From Siphonodentalium dalli (Eukaryota > Mollusca > Scaphopoda > Gadilida > Siphonodentaliidae), in assembly GCA_032622095.1 (NCBI GenBank), contig CP136061.1:87662983-87726982 (forward strand): a stretch of DNA of 64,000 nucleotides, read 5' to 3'. This document shows, one piece after another, positions 7,571 through 63,869 of the stretch. The position numbers and the translations under genes were made by a program. A model generated the notes under the pieces. The model was not told where the DNA came from, did not search any database, and saw only the letters and a program-made list of their open reading frames with translations. Numbering within the stretch: the stretch's first letter is position 1; each line of letters begins with the position of its first letter.

Positions 7571-7833
7571 CAAACAGGTGATATATTGTTAAATCGATTT
7601 CTGGGTAAACGGTAATCAACAGGTTAAATATTGATAATAGCCTGAGAGCATCAAAGACAAACAATATGCCATAACTCTATTGGGATACTGGGATGCTGTA
7701 AGTCTTAATCAAATATTGTGCAACAACCCAACAATAGGTCACCAGCTGAGGTCATTGGACAGCTGACTAAAAGGTTATGATCTGAAAGCCCTTGATCAAA
7801 GATAATAGGATTTGTACATTAGTAGGAAGCATG

Positions 7834-7948
7834 TATCTGACATTTGCAGAATAAGGTCCCTCAGAGGGTTAATTTAATTATGTTACCCTGCACAGTAGGC
7901 TAGCACCACCATGTACACCCTCTGGGGACCTCATTCTGCTTAGGCCTT
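7834..7948. mobile_element. H-family MITE, half copy
   Basis: One hairpin only: TCTGACATTTGCAGAATAAG through CTGGGGACCTCATTCTGCTT. No second hairpin and no right terminus. Confidence 0.65.
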
Positions 7949-8648
7949 TAATTGTGAAAAATATGTCGAGTATCAAGCAAAATGAAAAAAAAATTACAAT
8001 CATCGATGAATTTCCAACATAATTGCACAAATTGAAATTTCAGTACATTAATAGGCCCAAAAAATATATATACCTTTGTTTTTGGTAACATGCAAGAAAA
8101 AAATAGGGGCGGTGGGGTGGCTTTTCATTTTATTTTATTTTTTCATTTTATTTTCAACTTTGCTCAAAATAAATATGAATACCCCCCAGACTGCTTCTCC
8201 TTGTTTTTAATGTACTACATGTATATTAATAATAAAACTAAGTAAATAATATTAGAATATTGTGTAATTTATTGTTTTATTGAATAAAACATGAAAAATA
8301 AGTTGGATTCGGCTGTGACCTAAATGAAGTGTGGTATAATTTCCAGTTTAACAGGACACGCGATGTGTCTGTTTTACATGGAAATGAGTCAGATTACCCG
8401 GAAAATAAAATCGGATGTTCACTAATTTTACAAAATCAATCAAACGAAAATGGTCAGGGTGCTGGAATAGGAGCAGGCGAGTCACCAAAAACAAAGGTCT
8501 GTTTTATTTCGGCCTTAAAATAAAAATGTTGTTTAAAAACAGACAATTTTACACTGAATGTATTAGCTAATATCAAAATTATGGTGAACAAAGAATTTTC
8601 AATGCCACAAGTGACTGGCTCAGATCTCAGATGCCGATTGGTATAAAA

Positions 8649-8865
8649 TACAGTATTGCCCTAAGTAATCGGCTCCATAACCACAGCAGAATTATGGGTA
8701 ACTTTTCAGGATTTAGTCTAAAATATGGCTTGTTGCCATTCAACGGAAAGCTCTCGGGGAGAGCTTTCCGATGAATGGCAACAAGCCATATTTCCGACTA
8801 AATCCTGAAAAGTTACCCATAATTCTGCTGTGGTTATGGAATTGATTACTTAGGGCATTACTGTA
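8649..8865. mobile_element. M1 palindromic MITE, complete
   Basis: TACAGTATTGCCCTAAGTAA to GGGCATTACTGTA, full ~105-bp arms. One arm shows AACGGAAAG in place of ATCGGAAAG. Confidence 0.85.
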
Positions 8866-10241
8866 TCTGTTAATAATTATTTGGTTGTCATTGGTGGAAA
8901 GGTCCATGCCTTGGAAGAATTTTATATTCATGGAAGAATTTTGATCCCAAGAACTTGGGAGGAATATGACAAAAGCAAGAATTACTGGGCATAATTCTAG
9001 GGTCCAAACCGCCAAATGCCTTTAACTCCAGAATCTAATATAATTGCAACAGACAAGCAAGGAGTATCAATACTGAAAAACCTTCAAAGAACGAGAGGCC
9101 GATCACGATCGGCAGATGTTAACCCATCCCTTGGCGATAAAAATTTAATATGATCGGATAAATGAGAGTTTTGGTGTTGAATTATAGAGTATACTGTTAT
9201 GTACTATTATAGACAAATGTACATAACACAAATTATTGGAATTTATGGGTCACTGGCATTTATATAAGAGAATGCACTGGTACAGGATCTGTAATGCTAA
9301 ACCGCCACAGCCAGCAAGTCCGTGGGTTAAATGTGTAGGTGTGCCCTGGACATGGAATACTTGGGTTAAGAGAGTCAAATTTAAGTTTACAATAATAATG
9401 TGTCCTAGTAGACAGATAAGCAACCTCACCACTGACCCATTAATATCAATTATATAGCACAGCTGTCAAAAAATCACAGGAATTGTTTATGTTGAACACT
9501 GACCTCTATTAAACCAATAACAATTATAATGATATCAGACCATCTGAAGATATAACTCTGCAGCACAGATGTCCAAGTCTACTGTTAATATCATGTGATG
9601 TTTATTGTTGAATCTTTATTTTAAATTAGATACCACAGGCTTCTTTATCAGATTATTTGCACATTGGCATAATAGACATCAGAAAATAATATAGCTTTAT
9701 CAATAGCTAAGTAGTCCAAATGCAACAGATTTACCAGTACATAACACAAGATTTTGGACCGATTTAATCAAATTTGGTGTGGTGATTCGGGGTACCCTTG
9801 GCAGAGTTATAATGGTTATAATTGTTTTTAATTATTTAAAAAATTTAAAGGGACACATTGGAAATCTTTTTATTGGTTCCAATCAGTTAAAAAATGTTTG
9901 AGTTATGGCAGAATGTGTGAATTCTAAGTAGAAAAAGGGCCATAACTCTGTAACAAAAACTCGGATCAAACCCAAATTCGAACTCGATCTGTATTTTGGG
10001 CTGATATACCCATATACAAAATTTGCTTCTGATTGGATAGAAAATGTTTGAGTTATCGCATTACACGCATTATTCTGAGAATACCGAGGTTTAACCACCC
10101 CCCACATACCAACTTGCAAAGTCTATCAATGAAGTTTACTGTACCAATATACCTGGTTGTGTGGCTTTTGTTTGTCTTCAAAGGAGGGTTTACCATTTAA
10201 TTAAGTCTGAACAAATTGGAAACACTCAACCAACATCAATT

Positions 10242-10458
10242 TACAGCAATGCTCTAAATAATCGACTCCTTAACCACCGAAGAATTATGGGTAATTGTTC
10301 AGGTTTTTGTCGGAAACATGGCATGTTGCCATTCATCGGAAAGCTCTCACTGAGAGCTTTCCGATGAATGGCAACAAGCCATATTTCCGACTAAATCCTG
10401 AAAAGTTACCCATAATTCTTCTGTGGTTGAGGAGTCGATTATTTAGAGCATTACTGTA
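10242..10458. mobile_element. M1 palindromic MITE, complete
   Basis: TACAGCAATGCTCTAAATAA to AGAGCATTACTGTA. The left arm is more diverged (GGTAATTGTTCAGGTTTTTG) than the right. Confidence 0.85.
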
Positions 10459-10672
10459 AGTCATATGTTTATTGTTCAAGCTTGCTATAATTAACAAATC
10501 TTGGCACCACTTACTCTTGACAAAGAGACCATTTACATAACAATGTGTGCCTGCTATATCTTTTGAAATATTTCTTCACTAAATACTCATTCACAAGTTA
10601 GGAAATGTTAATTTAATAAGTTCAACAAATGACCATTTGTTGAAAGCATATTATCTCAACATTTCCCAACAT

Positions 10673-11135
10673 CAAATCTGATTTTAGTGTGTCTGTCATT
10701 TGCAGAATGAGGTCCCCAGAGGGTGAATTTAGTGATGCTATCCCGCATAGTGGGCTAGCATCACCAAATTCACCCTCTGGGGACCTCATTCTGCATGGCC
10801 TCATCTGCTATGGGGACATAGACTCAGATTGAAGTTCCCAAATTTTTGGTGAATATTGTGATGTACACCCATTGGGAACCTCGATTATGCAATGTGTCAT
10901 CTGCCAATTTGGTGATATAGAGAAACTAAACTAAAAAAGAAATAGAATCTATGTGAAGAAGTTTCTATAGAAATTTCATAAAAAAGAAACTTTCCAGAGA
11001 AGATGAGGCCTAAGCAGAATGAGGTCCCCAGAGGGTGAATTTAGTGATGCTAGCCTGCTATGTGGGATAGCATCACTAAATTCACCCTCTGGGGACCTCA
11101 TTCTGCAAATGACAGGAACACAATAATCAGGCTTG
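10673..11135. mobile_element. H-family MITE, long form
   Basis: Two hairpins as in the 254-bp form but separated by ~240 bp of non-palindromic DNA (with AAACTAAACTAAAAAAGAAA). Degenerate ends CAAATCTGATTTTAG and CAATAATCAGGCTTG; flanks CCCAACAT and ACCAACAT form a 7/8 match, again hAT-like. Confidence 0.75.
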
Positions 11136-11676
11136 ACCAACATCTTTCTGCATTATCTGTTTGGTTATTTGTCGTCTGCTTGTATTTCCTGAACATCCCT
11201 TCAGATATATAATAGATAATTCCAATGTATACTTTTACAACTGAATGGAATAATTCATTCAGCAGTGAAATGGTTAAAGGCTGAAATTAGGTCAGAATTG
11301 ATCCCCGAGTTGAATCCCGTGACTGTTAGTAACATATGGCAGCTGTTTTTATATATAATATCAATATTGATCCACTCATTTCAACTCAATCCATGGGCGA
11401 ACAAGAGAATTCACTCCAACTGCACCCACACGTATTGAAAATCAAATTTAAATAGCTGGATAATGAAACATGAAAGGAGAGTACATACAAACATATAGCT
11501 TCCATATACAAATATAAGGAATGGAAGTTTGACTAGTTCTATCACAGCTAGTGCATAAAGATACATAATCCAATTTAATGCCCCTAAATTACTGTTTCTT
11601 CGGCTTCGTGGGTGAAAAATATGTTATTCGAGTCGAGGAATCCAGACACCAAAGCTGATATTTAATATATGTTATA

Positions 11677-11881
11677 TACAGTAATGCTCTAAGTAATCGA
11701 CTTCTTAACCACAGCAGAATTTTGGGTAACTTACATGGATATGGCTTGTTGCCATTCATCGGAAAGCTCTCGGGGAGAGCTTTCCGATGAATGGCAACAA
11801 GCCATATTTCCGATTAAATCCTGAAAAGTTACCCATAATTCTGCTGTGGTTAAGAAGTCGATTACTTAGAGCATTACTGTA
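11677..11881. mobile_element. M1 palindromic MITE
   Basis: TACAGTAATGCTCTAAGTAA to AGAGCATTACTGTA. The left arm has a small deletion after GGGTAACTTA, while the right arm is intact. Confidence 0.85.
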
Positions 11882-11949
11882 TCACCACCTCTAATATTTG
11901 GCGGCCTGATAAAAATCAGCTAACTTTGTAATAGTATAGACATGCACTG

Positions 11950-12760
11950 CACGGATGCTGTTATGAGAGTTCACTCAAGGTCTGTACCAAGATATACCCA
12001 GGGCAGAACCTTCAACCCAGGAAAGCAGACAATCTTCAGTTCGTAGGGATTGCACGATTCACCATACATATCGGCACCCCCTGTTAACTATATCGAGATA
12101 CGATGGTACAATACACAAACAACAGCTTAGACCACCCGAAGTAGAAAGCTAACGCAGCATGAAGATTTTAAATAGAAGTACACAGCACAATTTACGGATA
12201 AGCGCGAGTAGCTATCACCGAGAAGATGACCATTGGAGTCTAATGCAGCACGCTATACGACAAGAGAAACATAGGGAAAAGACACTGAAGAAGGCCGCTC
12301 GCCTGATCACCCCAGATACGCCCAGATAGATGTGCTGTGAAATACGCCCAGAGCTAACCTAATCCCCTCTGTGTATATAGTAACAGGCAAATTGACACTC
12401 GGTACCCAGTTCTCAGCGAGCTACCAGAAGTTACCAACGACTCACGATTCTCATGGCGCTGAGAAGACAGCCGGAAACATGGATAGGAATACAAGGTAAA
12501 CATTACAATCTTGTATTTCTGACAATGCTACCCCGATGGACCAACAAAGAAGCGAAGCAGACGACAGGCCGACAAACTCAACCGGATATCAACCACGCAG
12601 ATGACGAGCGGACACGCCCAACTTATGAGGACGCGAGAAGACCCCAACCCGAGCAGACGACAGGAAGACGAACACTAAGAGAAACCAGATGCCGACGATT
12701 GAATGCCATTGACTTTGTTGTAATTAAATAATCAAATCGCTTTGATTGTCTAAGCGTTAT
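11950..12760 (+). other. GC-richer island with unrecognised 92-codon ORF (12453-12731)
   Basis: This ~0.8-kb stretch is visibly richer in G+C and in AGACGA/GACAGG-type words than its surroundings and contains none of the local repeat families. The ORF at 12453-12731 is rich in Arg, Thr and Gln (starts MALRRQPETWIGIQG) and is followed by a possible donor (CAAG|GTAAAC) at about 12494. It matches no family I recognise. It may be a remnant of a foreign insertion (retroelement) or of an exon of another transcript. Confidence 0.3.
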
Positions 12761-12916
12761 ATGTACCCCGTATTGGCACAGGTCGCGACACGCTGTACTA
12801 TCAGTGGCGTTTAAAAAATTACATAAATAATTTCGGAATCTGAGACGATGAATAATATCTCTTTCAACAAGAATACGGTATGTTGTGATAGTTGACGTGC
12901 GGATACATACCATACA

Positions 12917-13083
12917 TACAGTAATGCCCTAAATAATTGACTCCTTAACCACAGCAGAATTATGGTAACTTTTCAGGATTTAGTCAGAAATATGGCTTGT
13001 TGTCATTCATTGGAAAGCTCTAACTGAGGGCTTTCAGATGAATGGCAACAAGCCATATTTCCATTATTTAGGGCATTACTCTA
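12917..13083. mobile_element. M1 palindromic MITE, right arm shortened
   Basis: TACAGTAATGCCCTAAATAA at the left. The right arm jumps from AGCCATATTTCC directly to ATTATTTAGGGCATTACT, so about 50 bp of the arm is deleted. Confidence 0.8.
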
Positions 13084-13465
13084 CATTTTTTTTCCTATAG
13101 TGACAGACTGGTCTGTCTCTCTGACTCAAAATTATTATTTTATACTTCTGAATCAATGAAGTTCAGTCATAACTCGTTAAAAGTGGTATAACTATTCATT
13201 AACGAGTTTTTAGTAAAGACATCACTATGCCATTAACTTCCGCATACCCTTTAAATGTACGGGTCATGGGGTGAATGTACTTGATATGTTAATATTAGTA
13301 CAGACAGATTATACACCAGCTGGGAGTCGAGGAGACTCAGTAGTGTCACAAAGGATAAGATAACGAACAGAACAAATAAACAACATTGACCCAATGACAT
13401 TCGTTAATAACCTATTTTGCTGACTTAGCATTAGTGTGCAAAGCACTCTTACTGATGAAACTGAT

Positions 13466-13756
13466 CGCCAACAATTTCATCATGATAAACTTTACAAAAC
13501 CATATGACTTATCATTACTATGCGAAACAGATTTTATTATCTCCAACATGACGTAAATGAACGTCAACAAATTATGACTAAAATGACTATCAGCAAATTC
13601 ATCCAGATCAAATCAATAAAACCATCTGATTGTTACTGTACCTACAAGCATGTGATACACGTCACACTTTGCAATTTGACTGCTGTTAAACCTCAGATGA
13701 CTACTCATATCACACAATATCAACATCACACCATATGGTCAAGGCTCAAAATAAGT
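13466..13756. repeat. Left arm of a ~290-bp inverted repeat
   Basis: CGCCAACAATTTCATCATGA ... CACCATATGGTC reappears reverse-complemented at 17591-17873. The two arms bracket the Helitron-like element at 14383-16979. Confidence 0.75.
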
Positions 13757-14382
13757 GGCCGGTCATGGTCATTGTCCATCTAATTAATGTCCGATGAAAA
13801 ATAGCTTATGTCCAGTGCACTTCTGAATCCATCGGACATTTTGTCCAATGCAAATTTTTAAACAATCTGTATCTGTTTGGGTACATCCAGTACTGCAACT
13901 TATATATAGATTCATTCTAAACCAACTCTTTGCTCAAAATAATGTGTATTCACCACTTTGGACATGACATTGTCAAATTGATAATCTTAATTAAATTATA
14001 CTTTTATTGGTGCGATAATTGAGTTCTGGTTCAGGTTTTCATTTTTTACAATTTTTCATCTGATGGAAGCTAGATAGAACACATGTTTCGCAGTTCGTGT
14101 AAATGAAATGTCAGAACGAATTCTCGAAGCACGTTATTGTTTTATTTTATTCATTGAATTATTAAACACATAGTTGTACTGATATGATATTTGATGACAG
14201 GCATCATTTTGAAATGACCAGCTGTCTCTTTGAAAAGCCGATGAATATCCTAATGGATGTATTTCATTTCTACGACAACGCAGCATTCCCAAAATGACGT
14301 AATAAACCTTTTCCAAATATGGAGTGCATTCCTGATGTAGTAAATGTTTGTGAGGATCTTAGTATTTAGAAATAGTTATAAA

Positions 14383-16979
14383 TGAAAGTGTCAATGACAC
14401 TGTAGCTCAACTTAGGTAGGGGAATAATTTAATGGTTGACAGTAAATGGAGGAATAGGAAAGGTGCTAATTGAAATGTCTAACCTGTGCCAAAGGATTTA
14501 GTGATGCAAAGAGTAAAATACAAGATGGCTGCTGGTGGCCATTTTTTTTGGCCAATTGACCCCAAAAGAACTCGTTTCCATCTACGTATAATTGTTAACA
14601 TCCATGACAAATTTTATGAAGATCTGACCAAAGCTACGACCTACAAATTTCATGATGATCAGACGAACAGTACGACCTGTAGACCGCGCCAATGGATTGA
14701 ATTTTGAAATCCAAGATGGCAGCCATGTTTTTTGGCCGAATGACCCCACAATGATTCGTTCCCATCTACATGTCAATGTCAACATTCATGACAAATTTCA
14801 TAAAGATTAGACCAAAGGTACAACCTGTAGCCCGCGCCAAAGGATTTAGTCATGCAAAGAGTAAAATCCAAGATGGCTGCTGGCGGCCATGTTTTTTGGC
14901 CGAACAACTCCAAAATCACTCGTTCCCATCTACATGACAGTGTTAACATCCATGACAAATTTCATAAACTTCCGACCATCACAACGACCTGTAGCCCGCG
15001 CCAAAGGATTTAGTCATGCAAAGAGTAAAATCCAAGATGGCTGCTGGCAGCCATGTTTTTTGGCCGAACGACCCCAAAATGACTCGTTCCCATCTACATG
15101 TCAGTGTTAACACCCATGACAAATTTAATAAAGATCAGACCAAAGGTATGACCTGTAGCCCACGCCAAAGGATTTAGTCATGCAAAGAGTAAAATGCTCG
15201 TGGCCATGTTTTTTGACCGAATGACCCCAAAACGACTCGTTCCCATCTACATGTCATTGTTATAATTCATGACAAATTTCATGACCATCTGACCAAGGCT
15301 ACGACCTGTAGCCCGCACCAAAGGATTTAGTCATGCAAAGAGTAAAATCCAAGATGGCTGCTGGCGGCCATGTTTTTTGACCGAATGACCCCAAAACGAC
15401 TCAATCCCATCTACATGTCATTGTTATCATTCATGACAAATTTCATGATGATCAGACGAACAGTACGACCTGTAGCCCGCGCCAATGGATTGAATTTTGA
15501 AATCCAAGATGGCCGCCAGCGGCCATGTTTTTTGGCCGAATGACCCACAATGATTTGTTCCCATCTACATGTCAACGTTTGTGACAAATTTTATAAAGAT
15601 TAGACCAAAGGCAACCTATAGCCCGCGCCAAAGGATTTAGTAATGCAAAGAGTAAAATCCAAGATGGCTGCTGGCAGCCATGTTTTTTGGCCGAACGACC
15701 CCAAAATCACTCGTTCCCATCTACATGTCATTATTTCATGATGATCAGACGAACAGTACGACCTGTAGCCTGCGCCAATGGATTGAATCTTGAAATCCAA
15801 GATGGCCGCCAGCGGCCATGTTTTTTGGCTGAATGACCCCAAAATGACTCGTTCCCATCTACATGTCAATGTCAAAATTCATGACAAATTTCATAAAGAT
15901 CAGACCAAAGGTACGACCTGTAGCCCGCGCCAAAGGATTTAGTCATGCAAATAGTAAAATCCAAGATGGCTGCTGGCGGCCATGTTTTTCGGCCGAACGA
16001 CCCCAAAATCACTCGTTCCCATCTACATGTCATTGTTAACATCCATGACAAATTTCATGATGTTCCGATCAAAGCTACGACCTGTAGCCCGCGCCAAAGG
16101 ATTTAGTCATGCAAAGAGTAAAATCCAGGATGGCTGCTGGCGGCCATGTTTATTGGCCGAACGACCCCAAAATGACTCGTTCCCATCTACATGTCAATAT
16201 TAACATCCATGACAAATTTCATGATGATCAGACGAACAGTACGACCTGTAGCCCGCGCCAATGGATTGAATTTTGAAATCTAAGATGGCCGCCAGCGGCC
16301 ATGTTTTTTGGCTGAATGACCCCACAATGATTCGTTCCCATCTACATGTCAATGTCAACATTCATGACAAATTTCATAAAGATTAGACCAAAGGTACAAC
16401 CTGTAGCCCGCGCCAAAGGATTTAGTCATGCAAAGAGTAAAATCCAAGATGGCTGCTGGCGGCCATGTTTTTTGGCCGAACAACTCCAAAATCACTCGTT
16501 CCCATCTACATGACAGTGTTAACATCCATGACAAATTTCATAAACTTCCGACCAAAACAACGACCTGTAGCCCGCGCCAAAGGATTTAGTCATGCAAAGA
16601 GTAAAATCCAAGATGGCTGCTGGCAGCCATGTTTTTTGGCCGAACGACCCCAAAATCACTCGTTCCCATCTACATGTCATTATTAACATCAATGACAAAT
16701 TTCATGATGATCAGTTGAACAGTACGACCTGTAGGCCGCGCCAATGGATTGAATCTTGAAATCCAAGATGGCTGCCAGCGGCCATGTTTTTTGGCCGAAT
16801 GACCCCAAAATGACTCATTCCCATCTACATGTCAATGTCAACATTCATGACAAATTTCATGTAGATCAGACCAAAGGTACAACCTGTAGCCCGCGCCAAA
16901 GGAAATTGTTGACGGACACACGGACGACGGACGCCAAACCATGGCAATAGCTCAAACTTACAAAAGTAAGTTGAGCTAA
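14383..16979 (+). mobile_element. Helitron/Helentron-like non-autonomous element with tandem core ('pearl'-type)
   Basis: Left end TGAAAGTGTCAATGACACTG followed by TAGCTCAACTTA; right end is a hairpin (CTCAAACTTAC AAAA GTAAGTTGAG) followed directly by CTAA. Hairpin plus CTRR is the Helitron 3' signature, and the AGCTCAACTTA/TAAGTTGAGCT inverted pair recalls Helentrons. An identical left end and similar right end recur at 34227 and 35458. There is no Rep/helicase coding sequence, so the element is non-autonomous. Bivalve 'pearl' elements have the same layout of flanks around tandem core repeats; the assignment is by layout and memory. Confidence 0.7.
14480..16910 (+). repeat. Tandem core: ~16 units of ~145-165 bp, two interleaved unit types
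   Basis: The anchor GCCCGCGCCAAAGGATTTAG or a variant recurs at about 14485, 14683, 14833, 14997, 15162, 15312, 15477, 15623, 15770, 15925, 16090, 16252, 16407, 16571, 16736 and 16891. Type A continues TCATGCAAAGAGTAAAATCC; type B reads CCAATGGATTGAATTTTGAA. Both then share AAGATGG.TGC.GGC..CCATG and GACTCGTTCCCATCTACATG. The open frames here come from the repeat and are not genes. Confidence 0.9.
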
Positions 16980-18414: not shown

Positions 18415-18545
18415 GGCTATCACGATTGAGACTCGATCACCCTTCAATATTCAAATCCTTGGCCAGTAAACAATCGAGCATATCAACCAATGAACATAAC
18501 AAGACTCACCCTTGGCCTTCTATATCGAAAGAACCAGGGACATGC
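18415..18545 (-). repeat. Decayed copies of the TBC1D25 exon-2 3' unit
   Basis: Reading on the minus strand, GGGTGAGTCTTG, TTGATATGCTCGATTG, TACTGGCCAAGGATTTGAA and AGGGTGATCGAGTCTC appear in the same order as the 69-bp unit at 19109-19332. The copies are diverged, so they are older than the near-identical tandem units beside the exon. Confidence 0.7.
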
Positions 18546-18860
18546 TAAGATTTTCAGATTGGGAGAAGTAACTTCTCCTTGTTTGATTATTAGGTTATCA
18601 GTTGCTGAAGTTCAATTTACACACCAACATCACCCTTTGGTGATCCAATAAGTATTATGCAACACAAGATCCCATTTTTAAACCATTACAGTGAGTAAGA
18701 TGGCCATTATAATCAATAAATATATATTAAATATGCTGTTGGGACATATGCATTCTAGTATATGAGAGAGGTCACTTCTCCCTGGGACAAAAATATGGAG
18801 AAGTGGCACATTTTAGGGAGAAAATGTCTCCCTAGTTGCCCTCTAGACTGGTCCCCGCCT
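18545..18860 (+). repeat. Duplicated intronic segment, copy A
   Basis: Matches 37300-38000 in direct orientation (TTGGGAGA.., GAAGTTCAATTTACA, AATATGCTGTTGGGACAT, GGAGAAGTGGCACATTTTAG, TAGRCTGGTCC). Copy A lacks the two MITEs found in the other copy, so it preserves the empty sites. Confidence 0.75.
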
Positions 18861-18869
18861 TGGCCAGTA

Positions 18870-19104
18870 TACAGTAAAACCCTAAATAATTGACTCCTTA
18901 ACCACAGCAGAATTATGGGTAATTTTTCAGGATTTAGTCGGAAATATGGCTTGTTGCCATTCAACGGAAAGTTCTCAGTTGTTGCCATTCATCGGAAAGC
19001 TCTCTCTGAGAACTTTCTGATGAATGGCAACAAGCCATATTTCCTGAAAAATTACCCACAATTCTGCTGTGGTTAAGGAGTCAATTATTTAGAGCATTAC
19101 TGTA
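18870..19104. mobile_element. M1 palindromic MITE inserted in an exon-2-derived repeat unit
   Basis: TACAGTAAAACCCTAAATAA to AGAGCATTACTGTA with a small internal duplication (GTTGCCATTC). The flanks CCTTGGCCAGTA and CAATCGAGC are contiguous in the decayed copy near 18455-18475, so the element landed at TA inside a former exon-2 unit. Confidence 0.8.
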
Positions 19105-19108
19105 CAAT

Positions 19109-19332
19109 CGAGCTTATCAAACGATTAATATATCGAGACTCACCCTCCGATATTGAATGCCTTGCCCAGTATACACCAGAGCATATCAAACGATTAATAT
19201 ATCGAGACTCACCCTCCGATATTGAATGCCTTGCCCAGTATACACTGGAGCATATCAAACGATTAATATATCGAGACTCACCCTCCGATATTGAATGCCT
19301 TGCCCAGTATACACTGGAGCATATCAAACGAT
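19109..19332 (-). repeat. 69-bp tandem array containing exon-2 3' end and splice donor (~3.2 units)
   Basis: On the minus strand each unit runs TCGTTTGATATGCTC, TGTATACTGGGCAAGGC, ATTCAATATCGGAGG then GTGAGTCTCGATATATTAA. Exact 69-nt spacing places potential donors at 19281, 19212 and 19143. Units differ by only a few bases, so the duplication is recent. The first donor gives the in-frame exon; the others would add TGA immediately after GGA GGG. Confidence 0.9.
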
Positions 19333-19391
19333 GTTATCTGTGGATCAATCGAAAACTTCTTGTATTCTGGTTGCATGAGGCCATCACACTT
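19282..19391 (-). CDS. TBC1D25: TBC1D25-like coding exon 2
   Basis: 110 nt, entered after a TTTATTTGCAG acceptor in phase 0, encoding 36 residues plus two bases. It starts KCDGLMQPEYKKFSIDPQI and ends LQCILGKAFNIGG across the splice. The IDPQITS core and the LQ.IL.KAF pattern match the conserved N-terminal ubiquitin-fold-like part of TBC1D25 orthologues as I remember them. The donor is GG|GTGAGT at 19281-19276. The last ~50 nt of the exon, the donor and the start of the intron are repeated in tandem immediately downstream. Reading through the donor in frame meets TGA at once, so only the first donor keeps the frame open. Confidence 0.85.
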
Positions 19392-21867: not shown

Positions 21868-22121
21868 CAAGCCTTGAAATAGGGTGTCTGTCATTTGCAG
21901 AATGAGGTCCCCAGAGGGTGAATTTAGTGATGCTACCCCGCATAGCGGGCTAGCATCACCAAATTCACCATCTGGGAACCTCATTCTGCTGAGGTGTAAG
22001 CAGAATGAGGTCCCCAGAGGGTGAATTTGGCGATGCTAGCCAGCTATGCGGGGTAGCATCACTAAATTCACCCTCTGGGGACCTCATTCTGCAAATGACA
22101 GACACCCTATTTCAAGGTTTG
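21868..22121. mobile_element. H-family hAT-type MITE, complete 254 bp
   Basis: CAAGCCTTGAAATAGGGTG to CACCCTATTTCAAGGTTTG, flanked by GTCATGAC and GTCATGAA (7/8 match). Same length and two-hairpin layout as the copies at 1990, 37408 and 41084. Confidence 0.85.
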
Positions 22122-30609: not shown

Positions 30610-30800
30610 TTAAGCTTGATAAGCCTTTTTATGAGACTCAAGTGGGTGTGAACCTGAGACTGTTATCATATGTGTTAAATAGATGACAATTTAATATGGC
30701 CCCAGCAATTTTTGCCAAATTGATTAACAATTAAAGGTCATCTGAGTTTAATATTAAGCTACCAGTGGCTTGGCTCCTCTCCAAACTGACCTGAGGCACT
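30610..30800 (+). repeat. Segmental duplicate, copy 2 (partial)
   Basis: GAGACTCAAGTGGGTGTGAA through AACTGACCTGAGGCACTG aligns with the second half of 30042-30440. Confidence 0.65.
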
Positions 30801-34226: not shown

Positions 34227-35458
34227 TGAAAGTGTCAATGACACTGTAGCTAAACTTGGAAAGTAGTTTGTTTTTTTCTGAGCAATGATAAAGAAGAAGG
34301 AAAGCCGAAGTGACAGTAAAGGTCTTTTAATATGTAGATGAAATTATATTCAATTCAAACATTTCACCAATAAATGTGGACTACAAGGTGTACATATGGA
34401 TTCAAATTTGAAATCCATGATGACTGCTGGCAGCCATGTTTTTAATTTATAATGAATTTCAGAAATAATCGATGGCTCCAATCTAGAGGTCACATGGAAG
34501 ATCCATATGAAGTTTGATGATGATTGGATGAGGGATGTGGCCTGTAGGGTGTGCCAAAGGATTTAGTCAGGCAAAGAGTAAAATCCAAGATGGCCACTTG
34601 CAGCCATGTTTTTTTTTACGAATTTCGGAAAAGATTTATGGCTACCATCTAGAAGTCACTATGAGGATCCCTTTACAACTTGATGATGATCAGATGAGGG
34701 ATGTGGGATGTGTCAAAGGATTTAGTCATGCAAAGAGTCAAATCCAAAATGGCTGCTGGCGGTCATGTTTTCAAATGAAATTCAGAAATAATCGATGGCA
34801 CCATATCCAATAGTCACACAAAAGATCCATATAAAGTTTTGTAAGGATCGGATGAGGTATGTAGGGTGTGCCAAAGGATTTAGTCATGCAAAAAGTAAAA
34901 TCCAAAAAAATTTCAAATTTGATGGATCCCATCTAGAGGTGATCCTAAACATTCCTGCAAATTTTCTCCAATAAAAGCAGTCTGCACGGTGTGCCGATGG
35001 ATTCAAATTTGAAATCCAAAATCAAGCCTTGAAATAGTGTCTGTCATTTGCAGAATGAGGTCCCCAGAGGGTGAATTTAGTGATGCTATCCCACACAGCG
35101 GGCTAGCATCACCAATTTCACCCTCTGGGGACCTCATTCTGCTTAGGCCTTAGCAGAATGAGGTTCCCAGAGGGTGAATTTGGTGATGCTAGCCTGCTGT
35201 GTGGGATAGCATCACTAAATTCACCCTCTGGGAACCTCATTCTGCAAATGACAGGCTCACTATTTCAAGGCTTGTTTTTTAACGAATTTCAGAAAAAATT
35301 GATGGCTCCCATCTAGAGGTCACCCTAGAGATCAATATTAAGTTTGGTGATGAACGGATGCGGCCTGTAGAGTGAGCCAAGGGAAATTGTTGACAGATGG
35401 ACAGACGAATGCCAACACACGGCAATAGCTCAAACTTTACAAAGTAAAGTTGAGCTAA
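34227..35458 (+). mobile_element. Second Helitron-like element, with nested H MITE
   Basis: Left end TGAAAGTGTCAATGACACTG is identical to 14383. The right end hairpin CTCAAACTTTAC..GTAAAGTTGAG is followed by CTAA. The core has about four diverged ~150-bp units (CCAAAGGATTTAGTCATGC; AGATGGC.GCTTGCAGCCATG). An H-family MITE at 35023-35274 interrupts the last unit. Confidence 0.7.
35023..35274. mobile_element. H-family MITE, 252 bp, inside Helitron-like element
   Basis: CAAGCCTTGAAATAGTGTC to CACTATTTCAAGGCTTG, two hairpins. No 8-bp duplication is visible; the flanks CCAAAAT and TTTTTTAACG suggest a small deletion on one side. Confidence 0.8.
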
Positions 35459-37407: not shown

Positions 37408-37661
37408 CAAGCCTTGAAATAGTGTGTCAGTCATTTGCAGAATGAGGTCCCCAGAGGGTGAATTTAGTGATGCTACCCCGCATAGCGGGCTAGCATCACC
37501 AAGTTCACCCTCTAGGAACCTCATTCTGCTGAGGTGTAAGCAGAATGAGGTCCCCAGAGGGTGAATTTGGTGATGCTAGCCCGCTATGCAGGGTAGCATC
37601 ACTAAATTCACCCTCTGGGGACCTCATTCTGCAAATGACAGACACACTATTTCAAGGCTTG
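37408..37661. mobile_element. H-family hAT-type MITE, complete 254 bp
   Basis: CAAGCCTTGAAATAGTGTG to CACACTATTTCAAGGCTTG, flanked by TTATCAAT and TTATCATT (7/8). The paralogous site near 18615 lacks it. Confidence 0.85.
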
Positions 37662-41083: not shown

Positions 41084-41337
41084 CAAGCCTTGAAATAACG
41101 TGTCTGTCATTTGCAGAATGAGGTCCCCAGAGGGTGAATTTAGTGATGCTACCCCGCATAGCGGGCTAGCATCACCAAATTCACTCTCTGGGGACCTCAT
41201 TCTGCTTACAACTCAGCAGAATGAGGTTCCCAGAGGGTGAATTTGGTGATGCTAACCCGCTATGTGGGGTAGCATCACTAAATTCACCATCTGGGGACCT
41301 CATTCTGCAAATGACAGGCAAGCTATTTCAAGGCTTG
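41084..41337. mobile_element. H-family hAT-type MITE, complete 254 bp, perfect TSD
   Basis: CAAGCCTTGAAATAACG to GCTATTTCAAGGCTTG, flanked on both sides by AAAACAAG (41076-41083 and 41338-41345). Confidence 0.88.
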
Positions 41338-54929: not shown

Positions 54930-55479
54930 GTCTCAATGATATTTTTACAATGACAGGAGGTAATATTTGGGAAAATTGGGTAAAATATACAATTTATATA
55001 TAAATTGCATATTTTATACCCAATTTTCGCAAATGTATTTTACAAAATTCACCAATGATGCAGCTGGGTTTATGTAATTATTTCTGCAAAGAACTCTCTT
55101 TTTCAATTATTTCCTGATAAATCCATAATTTAAACCATTGTTTCAGTGCAGATTTAAAAAAAGATACCTCCATGGAAGCTACCGGTATAGCTGTATCAGT
55201 GTTTACTCAGATCACCACCGATTAACGTTGGATGGTTTACTCAATGACATGTCATGCAGACCTGCATTTAGTTTTTATATATTTCTGTGTGGCTCCCATT
55301 TAGGAGAGTTGCTGTTCATAGCGTAATATATGGGAGGATGGATCGTTATCGGATTATTATAATGTATTCGAGAAATATGTAAACATTCCCCGAACCATTA
55401 ACTGTCAATTAATCAGGTGGGGGGGGGTATTTCGCCAAAGAGAGTTACTATACATATATCGGTGATGGGTGCCATCAGA

Positions 55480-56599: not shown

Positions 56600-58516
56600 T
56601 GGTAGGCCTATGTCAAAGAGCAATGGGATTTCTTGTATTCGAACAAATGGCATAACCGTAACAGATCCAGTTAGCAAAGCAAACGCTGTAAACCTACAGT
56701 TTCAGAAAGCCTTTTCTGAGGAAGACAATAAAGGTCCCTCACCATACCAAACCATGGCTTCAATTACAGTCAGTGAAAAGGGCATTGCAAACTTCCTGTT
56801 TAAGATAGATCCACACAAGGCTATGGGCCTGACAAGATTCACGGGCAGATCCTATAAAGACTCTAAGGCACACCATTGCTCCAATATTAACATCAATGTT
56901 TAATCTCTCTCTGGAGACTGGGACAGTACCCCATGATTGGAGAACTGCAATTGTTACACCAATATTCAAATAGGGGGACAAATCTGACCCAATCAACTAC
57001 AGGTACCGCCCAGTCTCTCTGACATGTATCATTTGTAAGATCCTCGAACATGTCATAGCAAGTAACATCATGCGTCATTTGGAAAAACAGGATATCCTGT
57101 ACAGCAAACAACACGGCTTTCGCTCCAAGAGATCAGGTGAGAATCAATAAATTGATTTCACGCAAGAGCTATATCACAACTTCAACAAGGGATTACAAAC
57201 AGATATTATTGTCATGGACTTCGCAAAAGCATTCGATAAGGTCCCTCGCTCCAGACTTATACACAAATTGAGTTACTATTGCATTGATCTGCAAACTTCC
57301 TCATGGGTTTCTAACTTTCTCTCAAACCGCACACAGACAGTAGTTCTTGAAGGCCAAAGTTCTGATTCAATCTCTGTTAAATCTGGCGTACCTCAAGGCT
57401 TTGTCCTGGGTCCCATATTAGTCTTGCTATACATAAATGACTTTCACGATTATATGAAACACAGCACTCTAAGACTATTTTCTGATGACAGCATCATATA
57501 CCGTACTATCAAAAATAACAATGATGCAGCTAAACTACAAAATGACTTAAATGCAGCTAGCCAATGGGAGAAAGACTGGCTCACGTCCTTTCACCCAGAT
57601 AAGTGTAATCTCCTCAGCATCTCTAGGCAAAAATCTCCTATAACTGAGCACTACATACTCTCTCAAAGGCCACACACTTAAAGAAGTCAAATCTGTAAAA
57701 TACCTCGGACTTACTATCCAAAATAACTTACATTGGGATCAGCATATTGATCAGATAACATCAAATGGCAATAGGGCACTTGGATTTTTAAAGAGAAACC
57801 TTAAGGTAGCATCTATAGATATCAAAACAGAGCATATCAAGCACTCGTCAGGCCCAAACTTGAATATAGCGCTACAATATGGGACCCACATCACAAAGGG
57901 CAAATAGACAAATTAGAAAAAGTACAACGCCGCTCAGCCAGATATGTCTCAAACAGATTTCATAACATCAGTTCAGTCACCGAGATGCTTGATAACCTTC
58001 ACTGGCAAAGCCTACAAGAGAGAAGACTTAAATCCAGACTCACTATGCTTTACAAAATTAATGACAATCTTGTCTTTTCTGATTCAAATAATGTACTCAT
58101 CACTAAATCCAAAACTACACGATCCTCTGTAAACAAAGCAAACTTCATCCAGATAGGCACAACATCAGACAATTACAAATACTCTTTTTTACCCCCGAAC
58201 TGTCACTCAATGGAATAATTTAACACAAGACTCTGTATCTTCTGAGGATGTGGGGGGGGGGGGGGGGGGGTTGGCTTCAAGACGACGCTATCACCTGATG
58301 TCTTGAAGCCTCTTATCCTCCTAGACCGCACCAACGAGTAAGCAACTGAGATTGTACATAGTTTTAACTGTTTTTACACTAACTGTTTTTAATACGAAAA
58401 CTACCCTTTTATTAATAGTATAAAAATACCAAAAAATTCCACTCAACCAGACTCAACGGCTAATAATGGTCAGCAAATGGCCGACGGCTGTAACCGGAAG
58501 AAGAAGAATAAAACAC
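56600..58516 (+). mobile_element. Non-LTR retrotransposon (LINE), 5'-truncated and broken RT
   Basis: The longest intact piece (57214-57681) shows FAKAFDKVPRSR (RT motif A), SGVPQGFVLGPI (motif B) and LFSDDSIIY (motif C, FSDD where FADD is usual). Upstream, in another frame, are ITVTDP..KANAVNLQF, then INYR..RPVSLTCIICKILEHVI. Downstream are AKYLG-like, GFLKRNLKVAS, VQRRSARYVSNRFHN and ERRLKSRLTMLYKI blocks. TAG at 56971 and TAA at 57148 interrupt it, with frame changes near 56860 and 57660 and a ~20-G run at about 58252. The 3' end GGAAGAAGAAGAA lies near 58497-58509. It differs from the fragment at 55480. Confidence 0.85.
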
Positions 58517-63031: not shown

Positions 63032-63253
63032 TACAGTAATGCCCTAAATAATCGACTCCTTAACCACAGCAGAATTATGGGTAACTTTTCAGGATTTAGT
63101 CGGAAATATGGCTTGTTGCCATTCATCGGAAAGCTCTCAGTGAGAGCTTTCCGATGATGGCAACAAGCCATATTTACAACTAAATCCTGAAAAGTTACCC
63201 ATAATTCTACTAGTACTGTGGTTAAGGAGTCAATTATTTGGGGCATTACCATA
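63032..63253. mobile_element. M1 palindromic MITE next to an exon
   Basis: TACAGTAATGCCCTAAATAA to GGGGCATTACCATA (damaged right tip), with a short ACTAGTACT insertion in the right arm. It ends about 11 bp before the acceptor CAG of the next exon. Confidence 0.85.
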
Positions 63254-63264
63254 TCTCTTTACAG

Positions 63265-63834
63265 TCAACAACCAAACATTGGGCCAAACCAGAACAATTA
63301 ACTATGGTCTTTCAAGGCTTCAGTTCCACATTCGAACATGTGGACCAATCAGGGAAGGAGCATCTCACGCAGGATGATCTAAACCACTTTCTCTCAGACT
63401 TTTATAATGGTGATGTACCTTTTGGTCATATTACGCCTTCGCTTCAATATCATGGCTTATCACCCGAGACTCCAATGAAAGAAGATAAATTCTTCAATGT
63501 TCTACGAGAAATCGAAAGGAGGAGAACGATTGAAGAAGAAGCTTATTGGGATTTTGTTGCTTTAGATACACGACTGAATGCTCGAGTATCTCTGAGTGAC
63601 ACATTTCTCTTGTTTCGGGAGTATCATGGTGATGAATTTTCTGTTAAAACATGGTGGAAATTTGTCGCTTCGAGAGAAGTAGCTGAAAGTGAGGTGTGTT
63701 TCAGTGAGATTAAGCATTGGTTGTGTGACCACCCGACTGATGATCCGAGTAGCGAAAAAGAAATCAAGGATGAGGAGAATAGATTGACTCTCGTAGAGGA
63801 TGGTTATAAACTGACACATTATCAGCAATTACAG
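63265..63834 (+). CDS. Internal exon of an EF-hand-like protein (continues right)
   Basis: 570 nt between CTCTTTACAG and CAG|GTAAAT, phase 0 at both ends, 190 residues, fully open. Residues ~20-45 (TFEHVDQSGKEHLTQDDLNH) look like a degenerate EF-hand: loop D-Q-S-G-K-E-H-L-T-Q-D-D with the usual Gly replaced. Two further helix-loop-helix-like stretches follow (FVALDTRLNARVSLSD and FVASREVAESEVCFSE), with poor calcium ligands. An acidic, charged tail (EKEIKDEENRLTL) ends it. An ATG at residue 14 (TMVFQGF) could also be a start if this is the first coding exon. I do not recognise the family. Codon use and the lack of stops support real coding. Confidence 0.75.
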
Positions 63835-63869
63835 GTAAATAATTTCAAAAGGAAAATTGGATGAGGGAG

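Follow-up and report, generated by a model that had tools for sequence, protein, structure and literature searches.

How does the end of an exon, together with its splice donor, come to stand three times in a row within a gene, and are the extra donors put to any use? The question is raised by a TBC-domain, TBC1D25-like gene on the minus strand of a 64,000-nucleotide stretch of the Siphonodentalium dalli genome (the window; positions are window positions unless prefixed with C1, the contig that carries it, or C5). With splice sites read from the sequence, exon 2 (19282 to 19391; 110 nt) follows a TTTGCAG acceptor before 19391 and ends in phase 2, its last bases ATC GGA GG being followed directly by the GTGAGT donor that begins at 19281. 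The frame continues into exon 3 (1072 to 1220; 149 nt), exon 4 (227 to 376; 150 nt), and the last exon, exon 5 (C1:87661642-87659814, left of the window; 1829 nt), all on the minus strand. Joined, exons 2 to 5 form a single open frame of 745 residues, and the last exon holds the RabGAP-TBC domain (PF00566, E = 2.9e-34). By sequence, TBC1D15 and TBC1D17 are the best solved relatives. We take exons 2 to 4 to resemble TBC1D25, which together with the TBC domain makes the TBC1D25 label plausible. A search for exon 1 with a narrow pattern (an open frame whose end has a basic-hydrophobic motif, followed by a phase-0 donor) found no match, and this exon may lie outside the window.

The first-pass annotation had proposed that the end of exon 2 and its donor are tandemly copied, and Tandem Repeats Finder places such an array at 19103 to 19332 (period of 69, 3.3 copies, 96% matches), with three identical GTGAGT donors whose first G stands at 19281, 19212, and 19143. 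The 69-bp unit named there holds as well, but its exonic share is 49 nt rather than ~45 nt; the remaining 20 nt are the start of intron 2, including the donor. Unit 1 (19262 to 19330) carries the productive donor at 19281. Unit 2 (19193 to 19261; donor at 19212) is identical to it, and unit 3 (19124 to 19192; donor at 19143) differs from it at 2 of 69 bases. All three lie on the minus strand, and as head-to-tail units within the range of roughly 10 to 100 bp they make the array a minisatellite (VNTR) by size and arrangement. The claim that the frame is kept by the first donor alone is upheld by the arithmetic: 69 is 3 times 23, and in the frame of the exon the donor spells GGG TGA, so that a transcript spliced at donor 2 or 3 would end translation at the first donor. 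A stop at this position precedes three more junctions (exons 2-3, 3-4, and 4-5), as is the case for premature stops that are coupled to nonsense-mediated decay (NMD).

Exon 2 and the array, taken as a 300-base query in a search that skipped common words, have two matching loci in the assembly (2.23 Gb, 9 contigs): the window (copy A) and a second locus 603 to 610 kb away on the same contig (copy B). The best collinear chain between the copies, into which only blocks of more than 88% identity were taken, comprises 58,518 compared bases with 1.84% mismatches. The four exons show 8 differences in 2238 bases, every one of them silent (dN of 0 and dS of 0.017), and none of the 745 residues has changed. 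The copies do differ in the array, where B has two young units, and hence two array donors, against three in A; unit 3 is the one that B lacks. As the array and the older units described below are found in both copies, it predates the split of A and B, and in view of the unequal unit numbers its length has been altered since. The donor of exon 3 also reads differently, being GTATGT in A (window 1071) and GTTAGT in B (C1:87058282, minus strand).

Deeper in the intron, the units are older. A complete old unit (about 18420 to 18489, minus strand) matches the young unit at 18422 to 18485 with a score of 54, whereas the best of 20 shuffled units reached 29 over the whole window and both strands; the match is thus not due to chance. 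Its donor is intact in B, but in A 4 bp are inserted into it. Another old unit on the minus strand has been split. Its 5' end (19103 to 19123) and a second matching piece (18858 to 18871) stand on either side of a 231-bp MITE (M1; 18872 to 19102) with TA on both sides, then follow 324 bp of other DNA (18534 to 18857) and a 3' half (18490 to 18533) whose donor at 18509 is intact in A. With the MITE left out, the two pieces of the 5' part score 46, a value reached by 0 of 2,000 shuffles (best, 26). The 3' half is a weak match when taken by itself (score of 26; 0 of 2,000 shuffles, best 25) and includes the full donor motif; the 5' and 3' parts are probably one unit. Diverged copies had been annotated at 18415 to 18545, and of these one is indeed a complete unit (~18489 to 18420), but the other is a 3' half only (18533 to 18490). 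That a further copy had been interrupted by the M1 transposon proved right, since removal of the element and one TA restores the unit. An initial count of three old units was reduced to two, given that the half at 18533 to 18490 probably belongs with the pieces around M1. The MITE, which is 241 bp long in B, and both old units are common to the two copies.

The MITE itself has BLAST matches of over 40 bp at 20 other places in the window. Five arrays of 1.9 copies each (2019-2214, 21897-22092, 35050-35245, 37437-37632, and 41113-41308) consist of a 103-bp palindromic unit beginning GCAGAATGAGGTCCCCAGAGGG and look like a second MITE-like family. A fragment of a retroelement reverse transcriptase (PF00078, E = 8.5e-18) lies at 57151 to 57678 on the plus strand.

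The junction at which the intron piece of one unit meets the exon piece of the next is common to old and young units. Had the units arisen by independent duplications, their ends should differ, and one founding duplication followed by turnover of units is therefore the simpler history. The first-pass annotation was correct that the exon end has been duplicated, but its view that this happened repeatedly is less well supported than a single founding event with later gain and loss of units. The motif ATCGT, which recurs at the breakpoint in the exon, where the units meet, and in the intron past the last old unit, is a weak hint to the origin of the first duplication.

We think that the array is best explained as a minisatellite that straddles an exon-intron boundary, its extra donors being a source of tolerated splicing noise that depends on the number of units rather than an evolved switch (probability of roughly 0.6). 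The shared junction suggests that a single ancestral tandem duplication took in the final 49 nt of exon 2 and, with the donor, the first 20 nt of intron 2. Whole units have later been gained and lost, as seen in the three young units of A and the two of B, and those deeper in the intron have decayed and gathered insertions, as the two old units show. The unit that ends the exon would meanwhile have been held constant by selection on the protein, in keeping with the absence of any residue change between A and B. Under this scheme, the first donor would be used often enough for a working gene, and some pre-mRNAs would probably take donor 2 or 3, meet the TGA immediately, and become targets of NMD. 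Regulation by the extra donors is possible but unsupported. The reading draws on the anatomy of the array, the graded decay of the units, their common junction, the difference in unit number between copies that share the MITE and the old units, and the exclusively silent exon differences. It also draws on the 300-base search, which matched A and B only, and on the decay of old-unit donors in both copies. Eleven other tandem arrays (period of at least 16, matches of at least 93%) occupy 1,968 bp, or 3.1%, of the window; without a 483-bp-period satellite, there are ten such arrays with 1.2% of its bases. Young short tandem duplications are thus common here, and an exon boundary is expected to be caught in one now and then.

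The strength of the donors speaks against this reading. Pairing with the 5' end of U1 was scanned on the minus strand from 19281 to about 1266, and the donor of exon 2 pairs at -10.1 kcal/mol. Only 4 of the 1,027 GT sites, the best of all those scanned, reach this value: the three donors of the array and, at 18509, that of the split old unit, which is weaker in B (-9.2). The donor of the complete old unit is at -6.1 in A, where it has the 4-bp insertion, and at -10.1 in B, where it is intact. Among donors of comparable strength, the intron-proximal one is favored for reasons described as unknown (PMC6002489), and if this rule is applied to the array, most of the message would be broken. On the other hand, the protein is unchanged in both copies, which suggests that the exon-most donor is used enough. 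The choice between such donors can also be shifted by splicing factors, SRSF1 favoring intron-proximal and hnRNP A1 intron-distal donors (PMC5585400).

We also considered whether selection has preserved the old donors. The donor 9-mer of the two old units is kept at 18 of 18 bases, compared with 92 of 120 elsewhere in the units (Fisher P = 0.012, post hoc), which is a weak hint of constraint. In this count one old unit combines a 5' piece of B with a 3' piece of A; taken wholly from A, it keeps 48 rather than 49 of its 60 bases outside the 9-mer. A second block of the unit is kept as well as the 9-mer, and each copy has a change in one of the two old donors, though not in the same one. Selection on these donors is therefore not supported.

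Other accounts of the array differ in what they make of the extra donors. If it served as a regulated switch, a splicing factor would shift use between the first, productive donor and the later donors with their TGA and thereby set the output of the gene. The donors are strong and identical, the array is found in A and in B, and the same layout exists in exon 18 of Hps1 under control of Ptbp1 (PMC4222953); nevertheless, the unequal unit numbers of A and B, the decay of the old-unit donors, and the abundance of young short tandem arrays in the window make a switch unlikely. An improbable outcome, too, is that the array is simply harmful, with intron-proximal donors winning, the three-donor copy giving mostly decaying message, and the other copy or allele compensating. 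It would follow from the preference reported in PMC6002489, given that the donors and their exonic context are identical. However, at least two donors are present in both A and B, and the four-exon protein is unchanged, so some multidonor copy must work; hnRNP A1, moreover, can favor an intron-distal donor (PMC5585400). Likewise unlikely is a role of the unit number as a heritable dose control, in which each added identical donor would divert a share of transcripts to decay, the length of the array would set the output, and the cell would have to override the intron-proximal preference to make any protein.

Two further explanations deny that an exon end was duplicated in the genome at all or derive it from elsewhere. 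That the true locus has one unit and the rest is an assembly artifact is very improbable. Tandem repeats are prone to error, and should A and B be two haplotypes within one assembly, the local assembly is not clean; yet B has the same structure with one unit fewer, which argues against a one-off error, unit 3 of A has its private 2-base difference, and the diverged old units contain insertions beyond what an assembler can make. Still harder to credit is a dispersed satellite that came to lie at the end of the exon or was co-opted to form it. Satellites and MITEs abound in the window, but the exonic half of the unit lies in a single frame with exons 3 to 5, and such an origin is disfavored by the genome search, which, with common words skipped, found A and B only.

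The nature of copy B bears on how the difference in unit number is to be viewed. A block of ~90 kb with the whole known part of the gene occurs twice on the contig (C1:87024440-87122085 and C1:87625767-87718238, the latter from the left flank of the window to 55256), collinear and interrupted by many insertions. One possibility is that the assembly retains both haplotypes, as A and B: no residue has changed, dS is 0.017, and the homology of A begins 877 bp past a run of 100 N (C1:87624790-87624889) that may be a scaffold gap. Several observations count against a plain allelic overlap. Collinear homology ends near window position 55256, with no gap in the stretches examined, and B there enters a high-copy repeat; the sequence at C1:87123001-87126000 is a very young one, with 38 other full-length matches at 99 to 100% among the 40 of 828 candidates scored. 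No collinear match to the right side of A was found in B up to C1:87160000, and an open frame on that side (63320 to 63861) has a single genome match, its own locus. Four further probes directed at the question of allele or duplication matched mainly repeats, with 28 to 40 of 7,789 to 15,449 candidates scored, and favor neither reading.

Some features of the two blocks and of the interval between them were seen along the way. The open frame on the right side of A spans 63226 to 63861 on the plus strand (212 residues) and matches no Pfam family at an E value of 0.01; we presume that it resembles EF-hand proteins. B holds ~13 kb (C1:87089303-87102548) that is absent from A at the matching place (30754 to 30757) and is made up mostly of tandem repeats akin to the satellite of 164-bp period at window positions 14717 to 16903. 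In the B-to-A interval, two identical 3-kb stretches lie 39 kb apart (C1:87300001-87303000 and C1:87261072-87264071), suggesting either a very recent duplication or an assembly overlap. A 3-kb probe from the same interval (C1:87200001-87203000) matches C5, a contig of chromosome size, at 97 to 98% over nearly its whole length (C5:235144846-235147650).

Parts of the picture are already known from other systems, namely boundary tandem repeats that vary between human duplicated genes and a productive donor upstream of an NMD-bound one. De Grassi and Ciccarelli (2009; PMC2812944) described variable internal tandem repeats, which are expanded minisatellites, at exon-intron boundaries in human genes within segmental duplications. 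The present array resembles theirs as a boundary repeat of minisatellite size whose unit number varies between near-identical gene copies and which possibly alters splicing. The boundary effect described there is that primate genes acquire novel introns, as supported by transcripts, whereas here an existing donor has been multiplied, as judged from genomic sequence. In the potato RdRp gene (PMC4974935), a small tandem duplication likewise doubled splice signals, and NMD is mentioned as a process that might remove unspliced forms; the S. dalli locus has gained no new intron but has had an existing boundary duplicated, the donor being copied without an acceptor. In exon 18 of Hps1 (PMC4222953), the upstream donor leads to full-length protein and the downstream donor to NMD targets. 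The order is the same here, where the reading frame predicts NMD-bound donors downstream of the productive one, but the two Hps1 donors are of unequal strength and have a known regulator, while those of the array are identical copies. Competition between equally strong donors at close range has been described for exon 1 of ER-alpha, which has two comparable donors 33 nt apart (PMC6002489), and for synthetic pre-mRNAs with duplicated splice sites (PMC8724738). Unlike in these reports, the donors here are natural, exact copies that include their exonic context, stand 69 nt apart, and number two in one copy and three in the other. In the open-licence PMC literature, we found no description of a natural exon end copied in tandem along with its donor and nothing useful on TBC1D25 in connection with splicing.

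With three exact donors in A and two in B, each with its exonic context, the pair amounts to a natural duplicated-splice-site experiment, one in which the reading frame reports which donor was used. As the frame survives splicing at the exon-most donor alone, counts of donor use would directly test whether position alone decides among equal donors. The same counts would also test whether minisatellites across exon boundaries alter the output of genes through decay.
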